Below the pieces are notes generated by a model. The model saw nothing but the letters and a program-made list of their open reading frames with translations, did not search any database and had not been told where the DNA came from. From Candidatus Nanopelagicaceae bacterium (lineage in GTDB: Bacteria; Actinomycetota; Actinomycetes; Nanopelagicales; Nanopelagicaceae), in contig VEQG01000002.1 of the NCBI GenBank assembly GCA_018883345.1, positions 33,708 through 97,707 on the forward strand: 64,000 bases of DNA, read 5' to 3'. Both the position numbers and the translations under genes were made by a program. Positions within the stretch are counted from its first letter, which is position 1. The number at the start of each line of letters is the position of its first letter. This document shows, piece after piece, positions 5,819 through 39,971 of the stretch.

Positions 5819-7249
5819 CTACTTAGCCATTTCAATCAATGAGCGAACCGATATGCCGGTAGCGCCTACAGGGGTATATCCATGGGCTTTTCCAGTATTC
5901 AATTCGACGCCGGCAATATCCAGATGTAACCAAGGTAACTCATCATTGATGAATTCCTTCAAGAAGAGACCGGCCACTAATGCGCCACCCATTCGCTCGC
6001 CAATATTGGCGATATCGGCAATTGGAGTATCGAGTGATGTGCGCAGTTCTTCCGGAAGTGGCAGTTGCCAAAATTGTTCTCCAGTGGAATCTGTTACATC
6101 TAAGAACTCTGCGCAAAGATCATCGTTATTAGTCATTACTGCAGAATAACGAGTTCCGAGCGCCACAACTTTTGCGCCAGTCAAAGTTGCAACATCAATC
6201 ATTGCATCTAGATTTTTGTTCTCTTGCGCCTTAACCATTGCATCGGCAAGCACTAAACGACCTTCGGCATCTGGGTTTAGTACCTCGACAGTTTTTCCAC
6301 CATAAATTGTTATTACATCTGATGGGCGAGTAGCGGTATCTGAGACCATGTTCTCAGCAAGTGCTGCCCAAGCGTCGATTGCAATAGGTAATTTCAATTC
6401 CGCAATTGCCATCAATGCACTAACTACGGAAGCAGCACCGGTCATATCAGCTTTCATTTCATCCATGTTGAGCGCAGGTTTTAGCGCTAAGCCACCTGTA
6501 TCAAATGTGATGCCTTTGCCAACATATGCATATGTGCGTTCTGCTTTAGCAGGCTTATAGGAAAGGTGAACCAATCTCGGTGGGTTGGCCGAACCTTGAC
6601 CAACACCGATTAGTCCGCCAAAACCTTGGGATTTCAATTGCTTCTCATCCCATACTTTTATTTTTACGCCAGCTACTTTCTTCGCTTTTTCATTTACCAA
6701 TTCGGCAAACTTTTTAGGATTTAAATAGCTCGGCGGCATGTTTACTAAGTCGCGTGTGAAATGCGTCCATCTCGTAACTATCTCAACTTCTTTAAGCAAT
6801 TTGCTATCGCCATCTGCATCGATATAAATCTCTGAAAGTGGAGCTTTCTGATCTTTTTTGGAATGCCCGCGGAAATCGACAAAAGAATAGGAACCTAACG
6901 CTGCACCTTCAGCCATCGCTCTGGCATCATTATCGATAGCAAATATCGCGCTCTTGTGGCCATGCAAACTCTGAGCAGCAATGCCAGCGGCTCTACGAAT
7001 GGTTTCAGAAGAATATTCTTTCGCTGCCTTGCCCAGACCGGAGAATAGAATCAGCTTAGTTGAGGTGCCAGGTAATTTAATTACTTCATCAGCCTTGCCG
7101 GTTGCTCCAATATCGGTAAGTGACTGCAAGATTTCCCGCTCATCTAATTTGAGGGTCGAGACAATCTCTAAACCTTTCGCCCCTTTGGCTAAACCAACGA
7201 CTAGAGCATCGCAATTCACTGACTTTTCGAGGTATTTAAGTTTGAGCAT
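5819..7249 (-). CDS. pepA: Leucyl aminopeptidase (M17)
   Basis: NPDAEGRLVLADA signature; likely start is MLKLKYLEKSV at 7249 rather than the longer ORF start at 7294. Confidence 0.9.
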   Translation of the reverse strand: MLKLKYLEKSVNCDALVVGLAKGAKGLEIVSTLKLDEREILQSLTDIGATGKADEVIKLPGTSTKLILFSGLGKAAKEYSSETIRRAAGIAAQSLHGHKSAIFAIDNDARAMAEGAALGSYSFVDFRGHSKKDQKAPLSEIYIDADGDSKLLKEVEIVTRWTHFTRDLVNMPPSYLNPKKFAELVNEKAKKVAGVKIKVWDEKQLKSQGFGGLIGVGQGSANPPRLVHLSYKPAKAERTYAYVGKGITFDTGGLALKPALNMDEMKADMTGAASVVSALMAIAELKLPIAIDAWAALAENMVSDTATRPSDVITIYGGKTVEVLNPDAEGRLVLADAMVKAQENKNLDAMIDVATLTGAKVVALGTRYSAVMTNNDDLCAEFLDVTDSTGEQFWQLPLPEELRTSLDTPIADIANIGERMGGALVAGLFLKEFINDELPWLHLDIAGVELNTGKAHGYTPVGATGISVRSLIEMAK

Positions 7250-7261
7250 TTGGCAAGAGTA
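7250..7261 (-). promoter_or_regulatory. Putative leaderless promoter -10 (TACTCT-N6-ATG) of pepA
   Basis: Minus strand TACTCT TGCCAA ATG. Confidence 0.5.
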
Positions 7262-7266
7262 TTGGA

Positions 7267-7278
7267 TAACCTGCTCCC
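7267..7278 (+). promoter_or_regulatory. Putative leaderless promoter -10 (TAACCT-N6-ATG) of gcvT
   Basis: TAACCT GCTCCC ATG. Confidence 0.5.
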
Positions 7279-8358
7279 ATGAAACATTCACCACTTGATG
7301 AAAAGCATAAATCTTTAGGTGCGAAGATGGCGGATTTCGGCGGCTGGGAAATGCCGATCGAATACCCAGGTGGTGGCGTGCTAGCCGAACATGATGCGGT
7401 TCGTACCCGTGTCGGAATTTTTGATGTTTCTCATTTAGGCAAGATTTCGATTAAAGGTAATGGCGCTAAAGATTTCATCAACAGCGTTCTTACCAATGAT
7501 TTAAATAAAATTTCAAATGGCGAGGCGCAATACAACTTACTTTGCAATGACAAAGGGGGAGTAATTGATGACATCATCGCATACCGCAATAGCGAAGATG
7601 ATATTTTCTTGGTACCAAATGCAGCCAACTGCGCCAAAGTTTATGAAGTCTTGAAATCACAGGCACCTGCGGGGCTTGAGATCAAAAACCTCCATGAAGA
7701 GTATGCCGTCATTGCAGTGCAAGGACCGAAATCAAAAGCACTACTTGAGAGCGTTGGCCTAAACCTGGGCATGGATTACATGGCATTTAGCCATGGCGAA
7801 ATTAGTGGCAACCAAGTGATTGTTTGTCGTACTGGCTATTCCGGCGAGCTTGGATATGAGGTGCTACCAAAATGGGGAGAAGCTGGAAAAGTTTGGGATG
7901 ACATTGTCTCTAATTTAGGCGATGGCTTAGTCTGCGGACTTGGCGCAAGAGACACCTTACGAACGGAAATGGGATACCCATTGCATGGCAATGAATTGTC
8001 AGAAGCGATATCCGCAAATGTTGGTGGGGCGGCCTGGGCTATTGCATACGATAAAGATAAATTTAATGGCGATAGCGCACTTCGTTCAGAGAAAGAGGCC
8101 GGAATACCTCGCAGACTTCGCGGACTAAAATTAAAAGATCGCGGTATCCCTCGTGGGCATATGTCGATTTTGGTAGATGGCAAAGTTGTAGGAGAAACCA
8201 CTTCTGGCACATTCTCTCCAACTCTAAAAGTTGGCATTGCACTTGGCTTAGTTGATACGGCTTACAAACTTGGCGATCAAGTCACTATTGATGTTCGTGG
8301 TCGCGAACTAGCGGCTGAAATTGTGAAGCTGCCAATGGTTCAACCAAACGTTAAGTAA
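7279..8358 (+). CDS. gcvT: Glycine cleavage system T protein (aminomethyltransferase)
   Basis: MADFGGWEMPIEYPGGGVLAEHDAVRTRVGIFDVSHLGKI, GYTGE-type motif (CRTGYSGELGYEV), LGARDTLRTEMGYPLHGNEL. Confidence 0.95.
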   Translation: MKHSPLDEKHKSLGAKMADFGGWEMPIEYPGGGVLAEHDAVRTRVGIFDVSHLGKISIKGNGAKDFINSVLTNDLNKISNGEAQYNLLCNDKGGVIDDIIAYRNSEDDIFLVPNAANCAKVYEVLKSQAPAGLEIKNLHEEYAVIAVQGPKSKALLESVGLNLGMDYMAFSHGEISGNQVIVCRTGYSGELGYEVLPKWGEAGKVWDDIVSNLGDGLVCGLGARDTLRTEMGYPLHGNELSEAISANVGGAAWAIAYDKDKFNGDSALRSEKEAGIPRRLRGLKLKDRGIPRGHMSILVDGKVVGETTSGTFSPTLKVGIALGLVDTAYKLGDQVTIDVRGRELAAEIVKLPMVQPNVK

Positions 8359-23764: not shown

Positions 23765-25449
23765 TTAGAGATACGGGCGGCTTGCGAGTTAGGTCCGAAG
23801 AGGGCGTAAGAGTATTCGCCTTCAACTTTTACCAATCTAACGCCTTCGCTCTCTAAGTAATTTAGGATCAACTCAACTTCTTCATAATTTACTTGTTGCA
23901 GAAAGCCATTATTCAGAACCTGTTCAGCGATTAATTCAAGAGACTCAATTGCCGAAGCCGCAGATGTAGTTGGAGTCGAGATGTTGGTAGCCGCGAGCCG
24001 TCCATATTTGATCGAAGCAAATTCCCAATAATCTCCCGCCGGCTTTGCGACTATTAATTCTGGAATTTTCGCAATTGAATTTAGCCTTTCGATTCGGGCT
24101 GCCGCACGTAGTAAGTACGAATAGCGATCCCGCACCTCAATTGCTTCCTCAAATTTTTCCAATAGGGAAAGTTCTGCCATCTTTGAATTTGAGAAGTCAT
24201 GCATGGTTCGAAAATCGACCTCTAAAAGATTTTGATATTTAGAAATCAAGTCATTGTAAGAGGCGATGGATTGATGTCCGATACATGGGGCGCCACACTT
24301 ATTGATCTCAAAGAGGATGCAGGGTGGCGCTGTTTTTATGCTCTTTTCAGTAATTTTTGGTTTGCACTGACGAATTGGCAGATATTCATGAATCGCGGCG
24401 ATTGCAGACTCGATAGCGGCGCCACCAGCGATTGGCCCGATAACTCCAGCTGGATCAACCGGTGCACCCTTTGAAATAACCAATCTCGGGAATGTTTCAT
24501 CGGTTAATTTAATCCAAGCAACTCGCTCGGGATTTCTGGAGCGACGGTTATACCTAGGTTGCGCTCCTTGAATTAGTCGAAGTTCGCGAACCTGCGCCTC
24601 TAGTGCGGTTGGGGTGATTATGCAGTCGATGCGCTCGGTTATTTGAATCATCTCTCGTATGCGTTTACGAGTCTCACCTGCAGTGAAATATGTTCTTACT
24701 CGCGATTTAAGATTCTTAGAGGTGCCGACATACAGCGGATCTCCTTTGGCGTCTTTGAAGATATAAACACCCGGTGAAGCTGGAATATTTGCGGCTAAAT
24801 GCTTCTTTGCAGCTTGAGCTTTGGTAATTCGATTAGAAAATTCTTTAAGTTCTTCCAGAGTAAATATCCCGAACGAACCTAATCTTTCGATGAGACCATG
24901 AAATACAGATACTGTGGCACGAACATCATCCAGAGCTCTGTGAGTGGGTGCAGTATCGGTGCGAAAAAATTGAGAGAGCGTTTCTAGTTTGTAGTTTCGA
25001 ACTTCATCCTTAGTTAATACTTGGCGTGCAATTTTCACGGTGTCCAACACTTGATATTTAGGGAAGTTATATCCAAGTGCGGTGGCAGCTGCGCGCAAGA
25101 ATCCGATATCAAAAGGTGCGTTATGTGCTACGAGAACGGTTTCGGATTCATTTCCAAGAAATTCAAGTAGTTGCGGAAAGACTTCTTCGATCTTTGGAGC
25201 TGGTAATAACATCGCCTCGGTTATCCCAGTCAGAACCGTTATAAAAGGCGGTAAGGGAACGCCTGGGTTAACTAAAGTTTGAAATTCACCGATTACCTGG
25301 CCACCGCAGACCTTTTGTGCGCCAATCTCGGTTATGGCATTTAAACCTGGCGAACCTCCTGTGGTTTCGAGGTCAACGATTACAAAGGTAGTGGCAGCAA
25401 GAGGGCGCCCTAAATCATCAAAGCTTGCCTGCCATGACACCTCATTCAC
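23743..25449 (-). CDS. DEDD exonuclease (DnaQ-like) fused to GIY-YIG/UvrC-like nuclease
   Basis: FVIVDLETTGGSPGLNAITEIGAQ exonuclease I motif, VAHNAPFDIGFL; then PGVYIFKDAKGDPLYVGTSKNLKSRVRTYF GIY-YIG; GTG start. Confidence 0.92.
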   Translation of the reverse strand: MNEVSWQASFDDLGRPLAATTFVIVDLETTGGSPGLNAITEIGAQKVCGGQVIGEFQTLVNPGVPLPPFITVLTGITEAMLLPAPKIEEVFPQLLEFLGNESETVLVAHNAPFDIGFLRAAATALGYNFPKYQVLDTVKIARQVLTKDEVRNYKLETLSQFFRTDTAPTHRALDDVRATVSVFHGLIERLGSFGIFTLEELKEFSNRITKAQAAKKHLAANIPASPGVYIFKDAKGDPLYVGTSKNLKSRVRTYFTAGETRKRIREMIQITERIDCIITPTALEAQVRELRLIQGAQPRYNRRSRNPERVAWIKLTDETFPRLVISKGAPVDPAGVIGPIAGGAAIESAIAAIHEYLPIRQCKPKITEKSIKTAPPCILFEINKCGAPCIGHQSIASYNDLISKYQNLLEVDFRTMHDFSNSKMAELSLLEKFEEAIEVRDRYSYLLRAAARIERLNSIAKIPELIVAKPAGDYWEFASIKYGRLAATNISTPTTSAASAIESLELIAEQVLNNGFLQQVNYEEVELILNYLESEGVRLVKVEGEYSYALFGPNSQAARISNYDFAIA

Positions 25450-25462
25450 AATCTGAAGAGTA
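25450..25462 (-). promoter_or_regulatory. Putative leaderless promoter (TACTCT-N7-GTG) of the DEDD exonuclease gene
   Basis: Minus strand TACTCT TCAGATT GTG. Confidence 0.5.
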
Positions 25463-25472
25463 AATTAAAGCC
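25461..25472 (+). promoter_or_regulatory. Putative leaderless promoter (TAAATT-N6-ATG) of the hydrolase gene
   Basis: TAAATT AAAGCC ATG(25473). Confidence 0.55.
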
Positions 25473-26225
25473 ATGACAACTGCACCTCATGGATGGTTAT
25501 CGGATTTTGCGGCTGATGGAAGTGGCCCAAATGCAAAAACAGGAATTGTGCTTGTACATGGTTTTACGGGTTCACCAGCTGCGATGCGCCCGTGGGCGCA
25601 TTTCTTGAATGATCGTGGTTACACAGTGAGAGTGCCTCGTCTGCCTGGTCACGGCACTAATTGGCAAGATTTAAATGAAGTTTCTTGGCAAGAGTGGCCA
25701 GATCGTGCAAGCAAAGATGTTGAAGAGCTTCTTGCAAAATGCGATCGAGTTTACGTATTCGCACTCTCCATGGGTGGGGCAACTTCGATTCAAGTTGCCC
25801 ATAGATTCGGAGAGAAAATCGCCGGTTTAGTTTTTGTTAATCCGATGATTACTATCAAAGGTCCGGCGCAATATTTTCTGCCATTAATTTCCAAATTTGT
25901 ACCAAAATTAAAGGCAGTTGGAGGAGATATCAAACGTCCAGGTTCGAGTGAGTGGTCATACGATGCATTGCCATTAAAGGGCGTGGTACAGCTTAGAAAA
26001 TTGCTTAAAGATTCAAGGGCAAAACTTCCTGAAATCAAGGCACCATTCATGATTTTTCACTCTAAAGATGACCATGTACTTCCGGTTTATAACACTGATA
26101 TTTACATGAATGAGATTGGTTCAACGCAAAAGCAACGGATTGAATTAATTAATAGTTACCATGTCGCAACTGTTGATTATGATGCTGACATAATTTTTGA
26201 AAATTCGTTATTGATGTTGGCTTAA
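25473..26225 (+). CDS. Alpha/beta hydrolase (carboxylesterase/monoacylglycerol lipase-like)
   Basis: GIVLVHGFTGSPAAMRPWAHFLNDRGYTVRVPRLPGHGT; nucleophile elbow ALSMGG; FHSKDDHVLP. Confidence 0.9.
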   Translation: MTTAPHGWLSDFAADGSGPNAKTGIVLVHGFTGSPAAMRPWAHFLNDRGYTVRVPRLPGHGTNWQDLNEVSWQEWPDRASKDVEELLAKCDRVYVFALSMGGATSIQVAHRFGEKIAGLVFVNPMITIKGPAQYFLPLISKFVPKLKAVGGDIKRPGSSEWSYDALPLKGVVQLRKLLKDSRAKLPEIKAPFMIFHSKDDHVLPVYNTDIYMNEIGSTQKQRIELINSYHVATVDYDADIIFENSLLMLA

Positions 26226-27316: not shown

Positions 27317-28339
27317 TCAAGGATGAATGATGGTGATTCCATCTTGTATCTGACTATCCATCTCTTGCAGGGCCTTTGGAGCTTCTTCAAGAGTAATTCT
27401 CTTCTTAATAAACTTACTTGGGTCCAACTTACCGCTCTCAATCATCGAAAGCATTGCTGGATAATCTCTTGCGGCCATGCCATGTGAACCGATAATTTCA
27501 AGTTCCCATGCAATTACTCGAGCCATCGCAATTGGCGTTAAGCCAGATTCTGAGAGCAGGAGCCCTAATTGGATGTGCTTGCCAAGTCGTCGTAGGGACT
27601 TGATAGAAAGTTCTGCGGTCACTTGGCTGCCCAGGGCATCAACAGAGATATCGGCGCCACCAAGTGATTGAATTTCAGATACCGCAACCTCGCTTTGAAG
27701 AAGATAATCTGCACCAAGTTGACGCGCATTTTCTAGGGCAATTTCATTAACATCAACGGCCGCAACTTTTGCGCCAAATGCTTTGGCAATTGCCACCGCA
27801 GATAAACCAACTCCACCGCAACCATAAATTGCTACTAAATCTCCGGAATTTAAATTACCTCTGGCGGTCAAACCTCGAAATGCGGTTGCAAAACGACAAC
27901 CTAAAGCTGCGGCAGTTTCGAAAGTAATGGCATCGGGTAGTTTGATTAGATTGAAATCGGCATTTCTGATTTCCACAAATTCTGCAAAGCTGCCGAAATG
28001 AGTAAATCCAGGCTGCGTCTGTACTTCACAAACTTGTGCATTTCCAGACTTGCACCATTGACATGTTCCGCAACCATTTACAAAGGGGACTGTTACTCGA
28101 TCACCAATTTGGAAACCTTTAACTCGGCTGCCTATTTGTGCAACAGTGCCAGCTAACTCATGGCCAGGTACGTGAGGTAATTTGATATCCGAATCGTGAC
28201 CAACATATCCATGCCAATCACTTCTGCACAATCCAGTCGCCGCCACCTTTACCAGAACTGAATTTGGTGCAGGGTAAGGGATTTCAAGATCACGAACCTC
28301 AATCGGACCCTTAAAAGTTTCGAAATAAACAGCGCGCAT
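27317..28339 (-). CDS. Zinc-dependent medium-chain alcohol dehydrogenase
   Basis: GLCRSDWHGYVGHD, PHVPGHELAGTVAQIG, CGTCQWCKSGNAQVC; start likely MRAVYFETF (28339). Confidence 0.92.
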   Translation of the reverse strand: MRAVYFETFKGPIEVRDLEIPYPAPNSVLVKVAATGLCRSDWHGYVGHDSDIKLPHVPGHELAGTVAQIGSRVKGFQIGDRVTVPFVNGCGTCQWCKSGNAQVCEVQTQPGFTHFGSFAEFVEIRNADFNLIKLPDAITFETAAALGCRFATAFRGLTARGNLNSGDLVAIYGCGGVGLSAVAIAKAFGAKVAAVDVNEIALENARQLGADYLLQSEVAVSEIQSLGGADISVDALGSQVTAELSIKSLRRLGKHIQLGLLLSESGLTPIAMARVIAWELEIIGSHGMAARDYPAMLSMIESGKLDPSKFIKKRITLEEAPKALQEMDSQIQDGITIIHP

Positions 28340-28351
28340 AAAGGGAGTATA
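28340..28351 (-). promoter_or_regulatory. Putative leaderless promoter (TATACT-N6-ATG) of the alcohol dehydrogenase
   Basis: Minus strand TATACT CCCTTT ATG. Confidence 0.6.
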
Positions 28352-28355
28352 TGTA

Positions 28356-28367
28356 TACCTTTCTCTC
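28356..28367 (+). promoter_or_regulatory. Putative leaderless promoter (TACCTT-N6-ATG) of the MOSC gene
   Basis: TACCTT TCTCTC ATG (alternative register TATACC-N8). Confidence 0.5.
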
Positions 28368-29000
28368 ATGGCGCAAACAGCTAAAGTGTTAACAGTCAAT
28401 GTCGCAGCAGTGGTACATGAAGGCGCGTGGACCGGAAGCGAAGGAAAAACTGGAATTGATAAACGTCCCGTTAATGGCGCTATTAGATTTACGGACAATG
28501 GATTGGCCGGCGATGTAGTAGTTGATAAAAAACATCACGGCGGTTTTGATAAAGCGGTTTATGCATATGCCTCCGAAGATGCCAGATGGTGGGAGCGCCA
28601 AATTGGAGTAGAGATTAATAACGGCGCATTTGGTGAGAATTTAACTACCGAAGGTATTGATGTAAATGGTGCGCTTATTGGCGAACGATGGAGGATTGGC
28701 AACGTGCTTTTAGAAGTCTCTGAACCAAGAATTCCATGTCGAGTTTTTGCCGGTTTTTGGGATCGTCCAACCTTGATTAAGGACTTTACCGCTGCCTTAA
28801 GACCAGGTTCATATCTAAGAATCATCGAAGAAGGTGAAATTAAAGCAGGGGATTTGATTCGTGTTGAGTTTAAACCACAACACGAAGTAACAATCAGGGA
28901 TTTATTCGCTGCCAAATCTGGTGAGCGTGGGAAGATTACGCAGTTAAAGGAAGTCACGCAGCTCTCAGAATCGTATAAAGATTGGTTAGCTAAACTATAA
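28368..29000 (+). CDS. MOSC domain protein (YiiM-like)
   Basis: KHHGGFDKAVYAYASEDARWWE, GAFGENLTTEGID, SEPRIPCRVFA. Confidence 0.92.
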   Translation: MAQTAKVLTVNVAAVVHEGAWTGSEGKTGIDKRPVNGAIRFTDNGLAGDVVVDKKHHGGFDKAVYAYASEDARWWERQIGVEINNGAFGENLTTEGIDVNGALIGERWRIGNVLLEVSEPRIPCRVFAGFWDRPTLIKDFTAALRPGSYLRIIEEGEIKAGDLIRVEFKPQHEVTIRDLFAAKSGERGKITQLKEVTQLSESYKDWLAKL

Positions 29001-38256: not shown

Positions 38257-38784
38257 ATGGAGTATCTAGAGGGCGGCGTAGGAATGCCAGATGCTTGGCA
38301 ACGGCTATGGGCTCCACATCGCTTGGGTTATATTCGCGGCGAAAATAGACCGTTAGATTCAAACAATGTTCCATGCCCCTTCTGCGAAATTCCAAAAAAA
38401 GCAGATCGCGACGGGTTAGTGGTTTTTCGTGGCCAAGAGGCGTATGTGGTGATGAATCTATATCCATACAACCCTGGCCATTTGTTGATTTGCGCTTTCC
38501 GACATGTGCCAGATTTAACCGAATTGAGCGACTCAGAACGAAATGAAATTTCATATTTAACCGCTCATGCAATGAAGACATTGCGAAAAGTATCTAATCC
38601 TGCTGGCTTTAATTTAGGTATGAATCAAGGCGCAATTAGCGGTGCTGGCGTAGCCGCTCATATCCATCAACATGTTGTGCCGCGATGGTCTGGAGATGCG
38701 AATTTCATGCCAATTATCGGTCAAACAAAAGTGCTTCCACAATTATTAACTGACACCAGGGATGCGCTAGCTCAAGCTTGGTAA
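38257..38784 (+). CDS. HIT-family protein (Ap4A phosphorylase/hydrolase-like)
   Basis: CPFCEIP, HIHQHVVPRW. Confidence 0.93.
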   Translation: MEYLEGGVGMPDAWQRLWAPHRLGYIRGENRPLDSNNVPCPFCEIPKKADRDGLVVFRGQEAYVVMNLYPYNPGHLLICAFRHVPDLTELSDSERNEISYLTAHAMKTLRKVSNPAGFNLGMNQGAISGAGVAAHIHQHVVPRWSGDANFMPIIGQTKVLPQLLTDTRDALAQAW

Positions 38785-39351
38785 TTGGTTTAGATATTTC
38801 TTAACGATATCGACGCCCAATTCAAATTCTGGATTGTTTATCAGCACTGGAATAGCTGGAAAAAAGATTCCAGAAGCAAAGCCATCAGCACCCACTGCAT
38901 CTAGCTGCGTTAAGTACTCTTCACGAAATTCCGATACCAATTCGAAATGTTCCGGATCGGCATCAACTAATTCTCCAGTACGGTAGTTATTGATTTTCAT
39001 TGATTCTAAATCGATTAATGCACAGGGAGATCCATCATCATCGTGCAACACTAAGTAAGGCGTCGCCACGTCATCAAGCAATCTTTTGGCTAGCATTACT
39101 GCATCATCGAAATCTTGTAACCCCTCATCAAAGCCAGTTACAACCAAAATTCGCGGCATTAGCAATTCATCGTAGGCGTGCCATAAATCTATTGTGTTTT
39201 GATCAAGACCAGAGCTGGCATTTATTACAAAGATTGCAGCAGTTATCTCTGCTTCGACTTCCTTGGAAACGCTTGCGCTCAAAGCCTTTGAAAGTGCGGT
39301 GGTGGCAGCACTTGGATGACCATATAAGCGCCAGATGTTTCCATTTTCCAT
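38767..39351 (-). CDS. Degenerate EF-G-like G-domain protein (pseudo-GTPase candidate)
   Basis: GHPSAATTALSKALSAS resembles an eroded P-loop; AAIFVINASSGLDQNTIDLWHAYDELLMPRILVVTGFD, FDDAVMLAKRLL, ALIDLESMKINNY, DADPEHFELVSEFREEYLTQL track the G and G' region of actinobacterial EF-G-like proteins; no switch II DTPG. Confidence 0.6.
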   Translation of the reverse strand: MENGNIWRLYGHPSAATTALSKALSASVSKEVEAEITAAIFVINASSGLDQNTIDLWHAYDELLMPRILVVTGFDEGLQDFDDAVMLAKRLLDDVATPYLVLHDDDGSPCALIDLESMKINNYRTGELVDADPEHFELVSEFREEYLTQLDAVGADGFASGIFFPAIPVLINNPEFELGVDIVKKYLNQLPSLS

Positions 39352-39364
39352 GGGCGAAAGCCTA
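39352..39364 (-). promoter_or_regulatory. Putative leaderless promoter (TAGGCT-N7-ATG) of the EF-G-like gene
   Basis: Minus strand TAGGCT TTCGCCC ATG. Confidence 0.55.
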
Positions 39365-39374
39365 CGATGTACCT
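39363..39374 (+). promoter_or_regulatory. Putative leaderless promoter (TACGAT-N6-GTG) of pgsA
   Basis: TACGAT GTACCT GTG(39375). Confidence 0.55.
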
Positions 39375-39971
39375 GTGATTAGTTCGCGAATGAAACCAGC
39401 TGTAGTCAAAGTGATTACTCCATTTTGTCGAGGACTACTTAAGCTGGGCGTAACTCCCGACATGATGACCATTTTTGGCACAGCAATAGTGGTGCTTGGT
39501 TCATGGCTGCTCCTTGCCCAAGGAAGATTAGTTGCGGCACTTTTCGTTATCGGCTTAGCGCTCCTTACCGATTTACTTGATGGAACCATGGCCCGTATTT
39601 CCGATCAAGGAGCAAGCAACTGGGGTAATTTTCTAGATTCAACTTTAGATCGTATTTCAGATGCGGCTGTGTTATTAGGACTTTCTTATTATTTATATTC
39701 GCAGGGTGATGAGCTCTTTATAGTCTGCATGGTCACGATTGCAGTGTCATCAATAGTTCCATATGCCAGGGCAAAGGCTGAAAGTTTAAATATAGAGTGC
39801 AAAGGTGGCTTTGCAGAACGTACTGAGCGACTCGTGTTGCTGGCATTTTTCGGGGTCTTACATTTACTTGGGATTACCTGGGCGTTGGATGCAGGTATCT
39901 GGATATTGTTAATACTTTCAACATTTACCGTGTATCAACGAATGGCAATAGTTTGGAGAGCCACTAGGTGA
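39375..39971 (+). CDS. pgsA: CDP-alcohol phosphatidyltransferase (phosphatidylinositol phosphate synthase-like)
   Basis: DLLDGTMARISDQGASNWGNFLDSTLDRISDA (CDP-alcohol phosphotransferase motif); start likely GTG 39375 or ATG 39390, not the TTG at 39000. Confidence 0.9.
   Translation: MISSRMKPAVVKVITPFCRGLLKLGVTPDMMTIFGTAIVVLGSWLLLAQGRLVAALFVIGLALLTDLLDGTMARISDQGASNWGNFLDSTLDRISDAAVLLGLSYYLYSQGDELFIVCMVTIAVSSIVPYARAKAESLNIECKGGFAERTERLVLLAFFGVLHLLGITWALDAGIWILLILSTFTVYQRMAIVWRATR

Follow-up and report, generated by a model that had tools for sequence, protein, structure and literature searches.

The 23-bp spacer between the start codons of two divergent genes in the 64,000-nucleotide stretch of Candidatus Nanopelagicaceae DNA analysed here (the window) is very probably, at about 85%, a bidirectional promoter of the known 23-bp class from which both mRNAs are predicted to be leaderless. 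By direct reading, the TA at 39363–39364 begins both of two opposed hexamers, which overlap with the key bases of each retained. Re-reading of the spacer found the sequence, coordinates and spacings given in an earlier note on this DNA (TACGAT-N6-GTG and TAGGCT-N7-ATG with a common TA) to be exact in every detail. The features of the locus are as follows.

39352–39374, no strand: divergent spacer of 23 bp between two start codons, read directly; sequence GGGCGAAAGCCTACGATGTACCT
39359–39368, no strand: AGCCTACGAT, putative shared bidirectional -10 core of the form ANNNTANNNT, common TA at 39363–39364, delimited by conservation
39363–39368, plus strand: TACGAT, predicted -10 element of the PIP synthase gene, N6 to the GTG at 39375; TANNNT lies N6–N9 before the aligned start in 135/135 loci
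39359–39364, minus strand: TAGGCT, predicted -10 element of the EF-G2 remnant gene, N7 to the ATG at 39351; in-frame starts at N5–N8
39369, plus strand: invariant G, first discriminator base, directly 3' of the plus-strand -10 element (135/135 loci)
39375–39971, plus strand: phosphatidylinositol-phosphate (PIP) synthase, a CDP-alcohol phosphatidyltransferase, GTG start (NF045883, PF01066); predicted leaderless, TSS ~39375
38767–39351, minus strand: EF-G2 remnant of 194 aa, GTPase-domain fold without the P-loop lysine (NF009377, AlphaFold2); predicted leaderless, TSS ~39351

In the proposed mechanism, housekeeping RNA polymerase would bind this minimal promoter in either orientation, with one TA step beginning TACGAT rightward and TAGGCT leftward. 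Transcription would start ~7 nt past the hexamer, at the first base of the start codon in both directions, so that both mRNAs would be leaderless and translated without a Shine-Dalgarno leader, from TSSs 24 bp apart. Polymerase usage, the TSS positions and leaderless translation are thus predictions from the DNA sequence. A -35 element was found in neither direction. The 23-mer is unique in the genome (a 1.4-Mb assembly, ~85% complete, in which the window is part of contig 54).

The plus-strand product scores above the curated cut-off of the NCBIfam model NF045883 PIPSynth (188.8 bits, cut-off 170) and matches Pfam PF01066. The gene had been labelled pgsA, a name that does not fit in its sense of PG-phosphate synthase. 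The minus-strand product is a remnant of EF-G2 and not a member of that family, scoring 53.8 bits against NCBIfam NF009377 EF-G2 (cut-off 890), with 194 aa as compared with 700 in the model. A Pfam search with this protein gave no match. Its AlphaFold2 model (pLDDT 94.7) has EF-G and related translational GTPases as best fold matches in the PDB, and the GK(S/T) P-loop lysine is missing, the motif reading GHPSAATT in the window protein and GHxSA, with no conserved lysine, in the Nanopelagicaceae consensus. An alignment of 37 members contains 17 invariant columns. As the remnant is present in 181 of 201 Nanopelagicaceae genomes and its ORF is intact (190–219 aa) in 107 loci, it is a maintained protein rather than a pseudogene; any nucleotide-free, ribosome-associated function resembling that of EF-G is a guess. 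The protein is ~200 aa long across the Nanopelagicaceae and ~345 aa in genus g5, a translational GTPase reduced stepwise.

Conservation of the core in the Nanopelagicaceae

The form ANNNTANNNT was found in register, 6–9 bases before the synthase start, at 135 of 141 distinct Nanopelagicaceae loci from 13 genera, and the exact 10-mer AGCCTACGAT at 125 of the 141. The ten non-consensus cores (seven ACTCTACGAT and one each of AGCCTAATAT, AGCATACGAT and AGAATACGAT) all retain ANNNTANNNT. Variation is confined to the NNN positions, with the skeleton A-NNN-TA-NNN-T constant, which is the pattern predicted by two TANNNT elements. The invariant stretch extends to 11 bp, AGCCTACGATG, as the G at 39369 does not vary either; the columns of this island carry 1.6–2.0 bits and nearly all flanking columns 0–0.8 bits. 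Fourfold-degenerate third positions of the synthase gene have a median identity of only 29% between loci, so that common descent alone is rejected as the cause of this conservation. The earlier note had held that loss of ANNNTANNNT from close relatives with the same gene pair would count against a shared core; it is kept at the great majority of loci, as above, but is absent in genera g5, g8 and g11. Collectively, these data support two putative leaderless -10 elements with one common TA.

TANNNT is a short motif, and the two hexamers might be coincidental, with both genes using leadered transcripts. The density of ANNNTANNNT in the window is 0.0017 per base, which puts the chance of an allowed register in one such spacer at ~0.3–0.5%, and the core is nearly invariant although silent sites in the Nanopelagicaceae are saturated. 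Coincidence is barely credible on these figures, and a chance origin was rejected on conservation (the 135 of 141 loci and the 11-bp island); judged from the aligned spacers, the core arrangement is not chance.

A second reading is that only the synthase promoter, TACGATG, is real, with AGCC as its upstream contact region and the minus-strand gene either transcribed from elsewhere or decaying. TACGAT plus G is indeed the most conserved part of the spacer; g5 retains it in the absence of AGCC, several outgroup families have it ahead of the synthase gene, and a subclade of genus g16 lacks a minus-strand start codon at the leaderless position. Against this, an in-frame ATG, GTG or TTG of the minus-strand gene lies 5–8 nt from the TAGGCT hexamer in 128 of 141 loci, and of the start codons at N5–N8, 130 are in frame and 6 off frame. 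Moreover, every AGCC variant retains the A that completes the minus-strand TANNNT, the minus-strand gene of g8 has its own TAAGGT-N6-GTG, and the minus-strand ORF is intact, with invariant columns, as described above. That both hexamers and both in-frame starts have been conserved is indirect support for the predicted divergent transcription. A lone synthase promoter is quite unlikely, and the two-promoter reading is preferred.

The g16 subclade (loci L017, L076, L077, L079, L191 and L195) keeps TAGGCT while the minus-strand start codon is missing from the leaderless position. L017 has GGA there, and its next in-frame candidate is a GTG ~24 nt further on.

Leaderless signals and overlapping -10 elements

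A leaderless signal is visible genome-wide. In 464 kb of Nanopelagicaceae sequence (the G066 sample plus the window), TANNNT before the called starts of 211 first-of-unit genes peaks at N6 (30 genes) and N7 (12 genes), most other positions having ~1–2; the two hexamers of the spacer, at N6 and N7, lie at these peaks and within the 6–8 nt expected of leaderless genes. A literature search for leaderless genes in the Nanopelagicales found nothing. At two control genes, thrS (30 loci) and ruvC (motif in 22 of 30 loci), the leaderless promoters have T-A-T fixed and a spacing of N6–N7 in most, with NNN variable: TAGGCT, TAACCT, TAGACT and others occur, TAGGCT being the commonest -10 at both. The NNN positions carry 1.64–2.0 bits in the core between the PIP synthase and EF-G2 remnant genes as compared with 0.58–1.58 bits at thrS, which places this core at the strict end of the range of predicted leaderless promoters and suggests that selection may act on something beyond the bare TANNNT skeleton.

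The same excess of information could point to the 11-mer being bound by a regulator or another sequence-specific factor, either instead of or alongside a function as two -10 elements. Each genome has about one copy of AGCCTACGATG, mostly here between the two genes, which gives no sign of a regulon; the 11-mer is not palindromic, its variants obey the -10 skeleton, and TAGGCT is a common -10 at the control genes as well. A regulon or operator reading of AGCCTACGATG was rejected, the sequence being essentially single-copy per genome, and a factor-binding site in place of, or in addition to, the paired -10 elements is very improbable.

Divergent pairs with TANNNT at N6–N8 before both genes number 38 in 1.264 Mb from four Nanopelagicaceae genomes (the window plus 400 kb from each of three relatives; genes were called by a simple codon-bias caller that misses some). 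The -10 elements overlap in 11 of these, eight with a common TA (offset 0) and three as TANNNTA (offset -5), and none of the 38 overlap at any other offset. Two of the eight offset-0 pairs are mutual orthologues at the EF-G2 remnant/PIP synthase locus. The remaining pairs are spread over offsets 6–71 at ~0.4 per offset; the Poisson probability of eight pairs at one offset is ~1e-8, and of seven ~2e-7. Control spacings or motifs gave nearly no overlaps in the Nanopelagicaceae genomes, and none of the 10 divergent leaderless pairs in the one high-GC outgroup genome used for pair statistics (74% GC) overlap.

A second common-TA pair lies in the window at 25449–25473, around GAAGAGTAAATT, where a 568-aa exonuclease with a GIY-YIG domain starts at GTG 25449 on the minus strand and an alpha/beta hydrolase at ATG 25473 on the plus strand; the common TA within 25450–25472 was not seen in the relatives read. 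The divergent pairs at 7249–7279 and 28339–28368 have separate, nearly abutting leaderless -10 elements (offsets 7 and 6, spacers of 28–29 bp). Fully overlapping -10 elements of the TANNNTA type (18-bp class) occur between divergent leaderless coding genes at L232:13531, L234:8327 and L275:19344, in two relatives. The earlier description of two leaderless coding genes on one -10 core as unusually extreme is therefore half right, given that the arrangement recurs at other Nanopelagicaceae gene pairs, including the second in the window, and that TSS classes of 10, 18 and 23 bp are known in E. coli.

Origin of the shared core

The relatives of the window belong to the Candidatus Nanopelagicaceae, tiny freshwater bacteria that include Candidatus Planktophila lacus. 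The pairing of the two genes is older than the family: outside the order, most of the outgroup families examined have a full-length EF-G2 gene, with an open frame mostly of ~720 aa or more, divergent to the synthase gene across a longer spacer, and no common -10 was seen between them in ~30 outgroup loci. The locus in the window thus resembles the EF-G2/PIP synthase pair of other Actinomycetes in having the same neighbours in the same orientation and differs from it in the remnant and the shared core. In several outgroup families (loci L129–L177), the minus strand upstream of full-length EF-G2 carries a recurring CTTGTGCC, followed ~15 bp later by GTGAAGG, which is possibly an older EF-G2 promoter.

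Within the Nanopelagicaceae, g5 and g14 are the first to branch in a thrS tree (support 0.95–0.97). The g5 remnant has 343–349 aa and the locus two separate promoters, with TACGAT already serving the synthase, and these promoters have apparently never merged. In g14, no match to the synthase or the remnant was found in the stretch adjoining thrS. Genus g8 has two separate predicted leaderless -10 elements, TAGAAT-N6-ATG for the synthase and the TAAGGT noted above for the minus-strand gene. In g11, which the tree places as nearest sister to the genus of the window, the synthase start is preceded by GGAGGGAG and the common core is lost. All other genera examined share the core. Sharing is thus not essential, as g8 and g11 have lost it.

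It appears that the arrangement arose in the Nanopelagicaceae by compaction of the ancestral divergent pair, in which EF-G2 would have been reduced to a remnant without a P-loop and the spacer shortened until the -10 elements fused. The simplest history would be truncation of EF-G2, compaction of the spacer, one fusion of both -10 elements and, later, two separations; this number of events is provisional, given the weak support for several internal branches of the thrS tree. Selection acting on both promoters would since have maintained the core, because nearly all of its bases sit in one -10 element and just upstream of the other.

Relation to known promoters and possible regulatory coupling

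Bidirectional promoters have been defined by divergent TSSs 7–25 bp apart (PMC10268837), and those of E. coli with a near-symmetrical -10 have preferred TSS spacings of 18, 10 and 23 bp (Warman and colleagues; PMC12825309). The spacer resembles these in having one -10 region for both strands, with a predicted spacing of 24 bp as taken from the start codons; geometrically, the shared-TA register corresponds to the 23-bp class, and TANNNTA, the register of other Nanopelagicaceae pairs, to the 18-bp class. The known cases come from TSS maps, and one of their transcripts is often antisense and non-coding, whereas here both products are coding, both mRNAs are predicted to be leaderless from the sequence, and the core is conserved across a family. 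About a fifth of the genes of Actinobacteria are on average leaderless, with TANNNT ~12 bp upstream of the start (PMC3160421), as are a quarter of those in M. tuberculosis (PMC3898074). Both genes of the spacer are like these in having TANNNT 6–8 nt ahead of the start codon and no recognizable -35. Juxtaposed divergent promoters are common in M. tuberculosis, where prpD (Rv1130) and the divergent regulator gene Rv1129c are both leaderless (PMC3160421; PMC3898074); unlike in such pairs, both predicted -10 elements here are physically the same DNA. Bidirectional promoters with a shared -10 are therefore known, and what is new is one with both products coding and predicted leaderless that is conserved across a family.

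Polymerase cannot occupy both orientations, so coupling of the two genes is possible. The shared TA might then have been kept as a selected switch, in addition to the proposed promoter function, with mutually exclusive binding fixing the ratio of PIP synthase to the P-loop-less EF-G2 remnant or lowering its noise, and the 10-bp core serving, in these streamlined genomes, as the complete control region of a two-gene module. Retention of the arrangement in 13 genera is consistent with this, as is the finding that strong one-way activation in E. coli represses the other direction and lowers noise (PMC12825309). However, basal firing at the five E. coli bidirectional promoters tested was too weak for the two directions to compete (PMC12825309), no functional link between the two genes is obvious, two genera have uncoupled them, and simple compaction accounts for the data. 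A selected switch is accordingly rated as unlikely. The earlier claim that mutual exclusion couples the two genes finds no counterpart in the sequence, and by the E. coli data regulatory coupling would not be the default.

As a bidirectional promoter, the spacer would show, in conserved form, the degree of compression that a bacterial regulatory region can reach: 23 bp, no predicted leaders and a 10-bp core for two promoters. Because the ancestral and intermediate states, as well as the merged and the secondarily separated ones, are still found in different lineages, the evolution of a bidirectional promoter may be traced stepwise. If sharing does impose competition for polymerase, the Nanopelagicaceae would offer natural shared and unshared versions of one gene pair for testing the importance of that competition.
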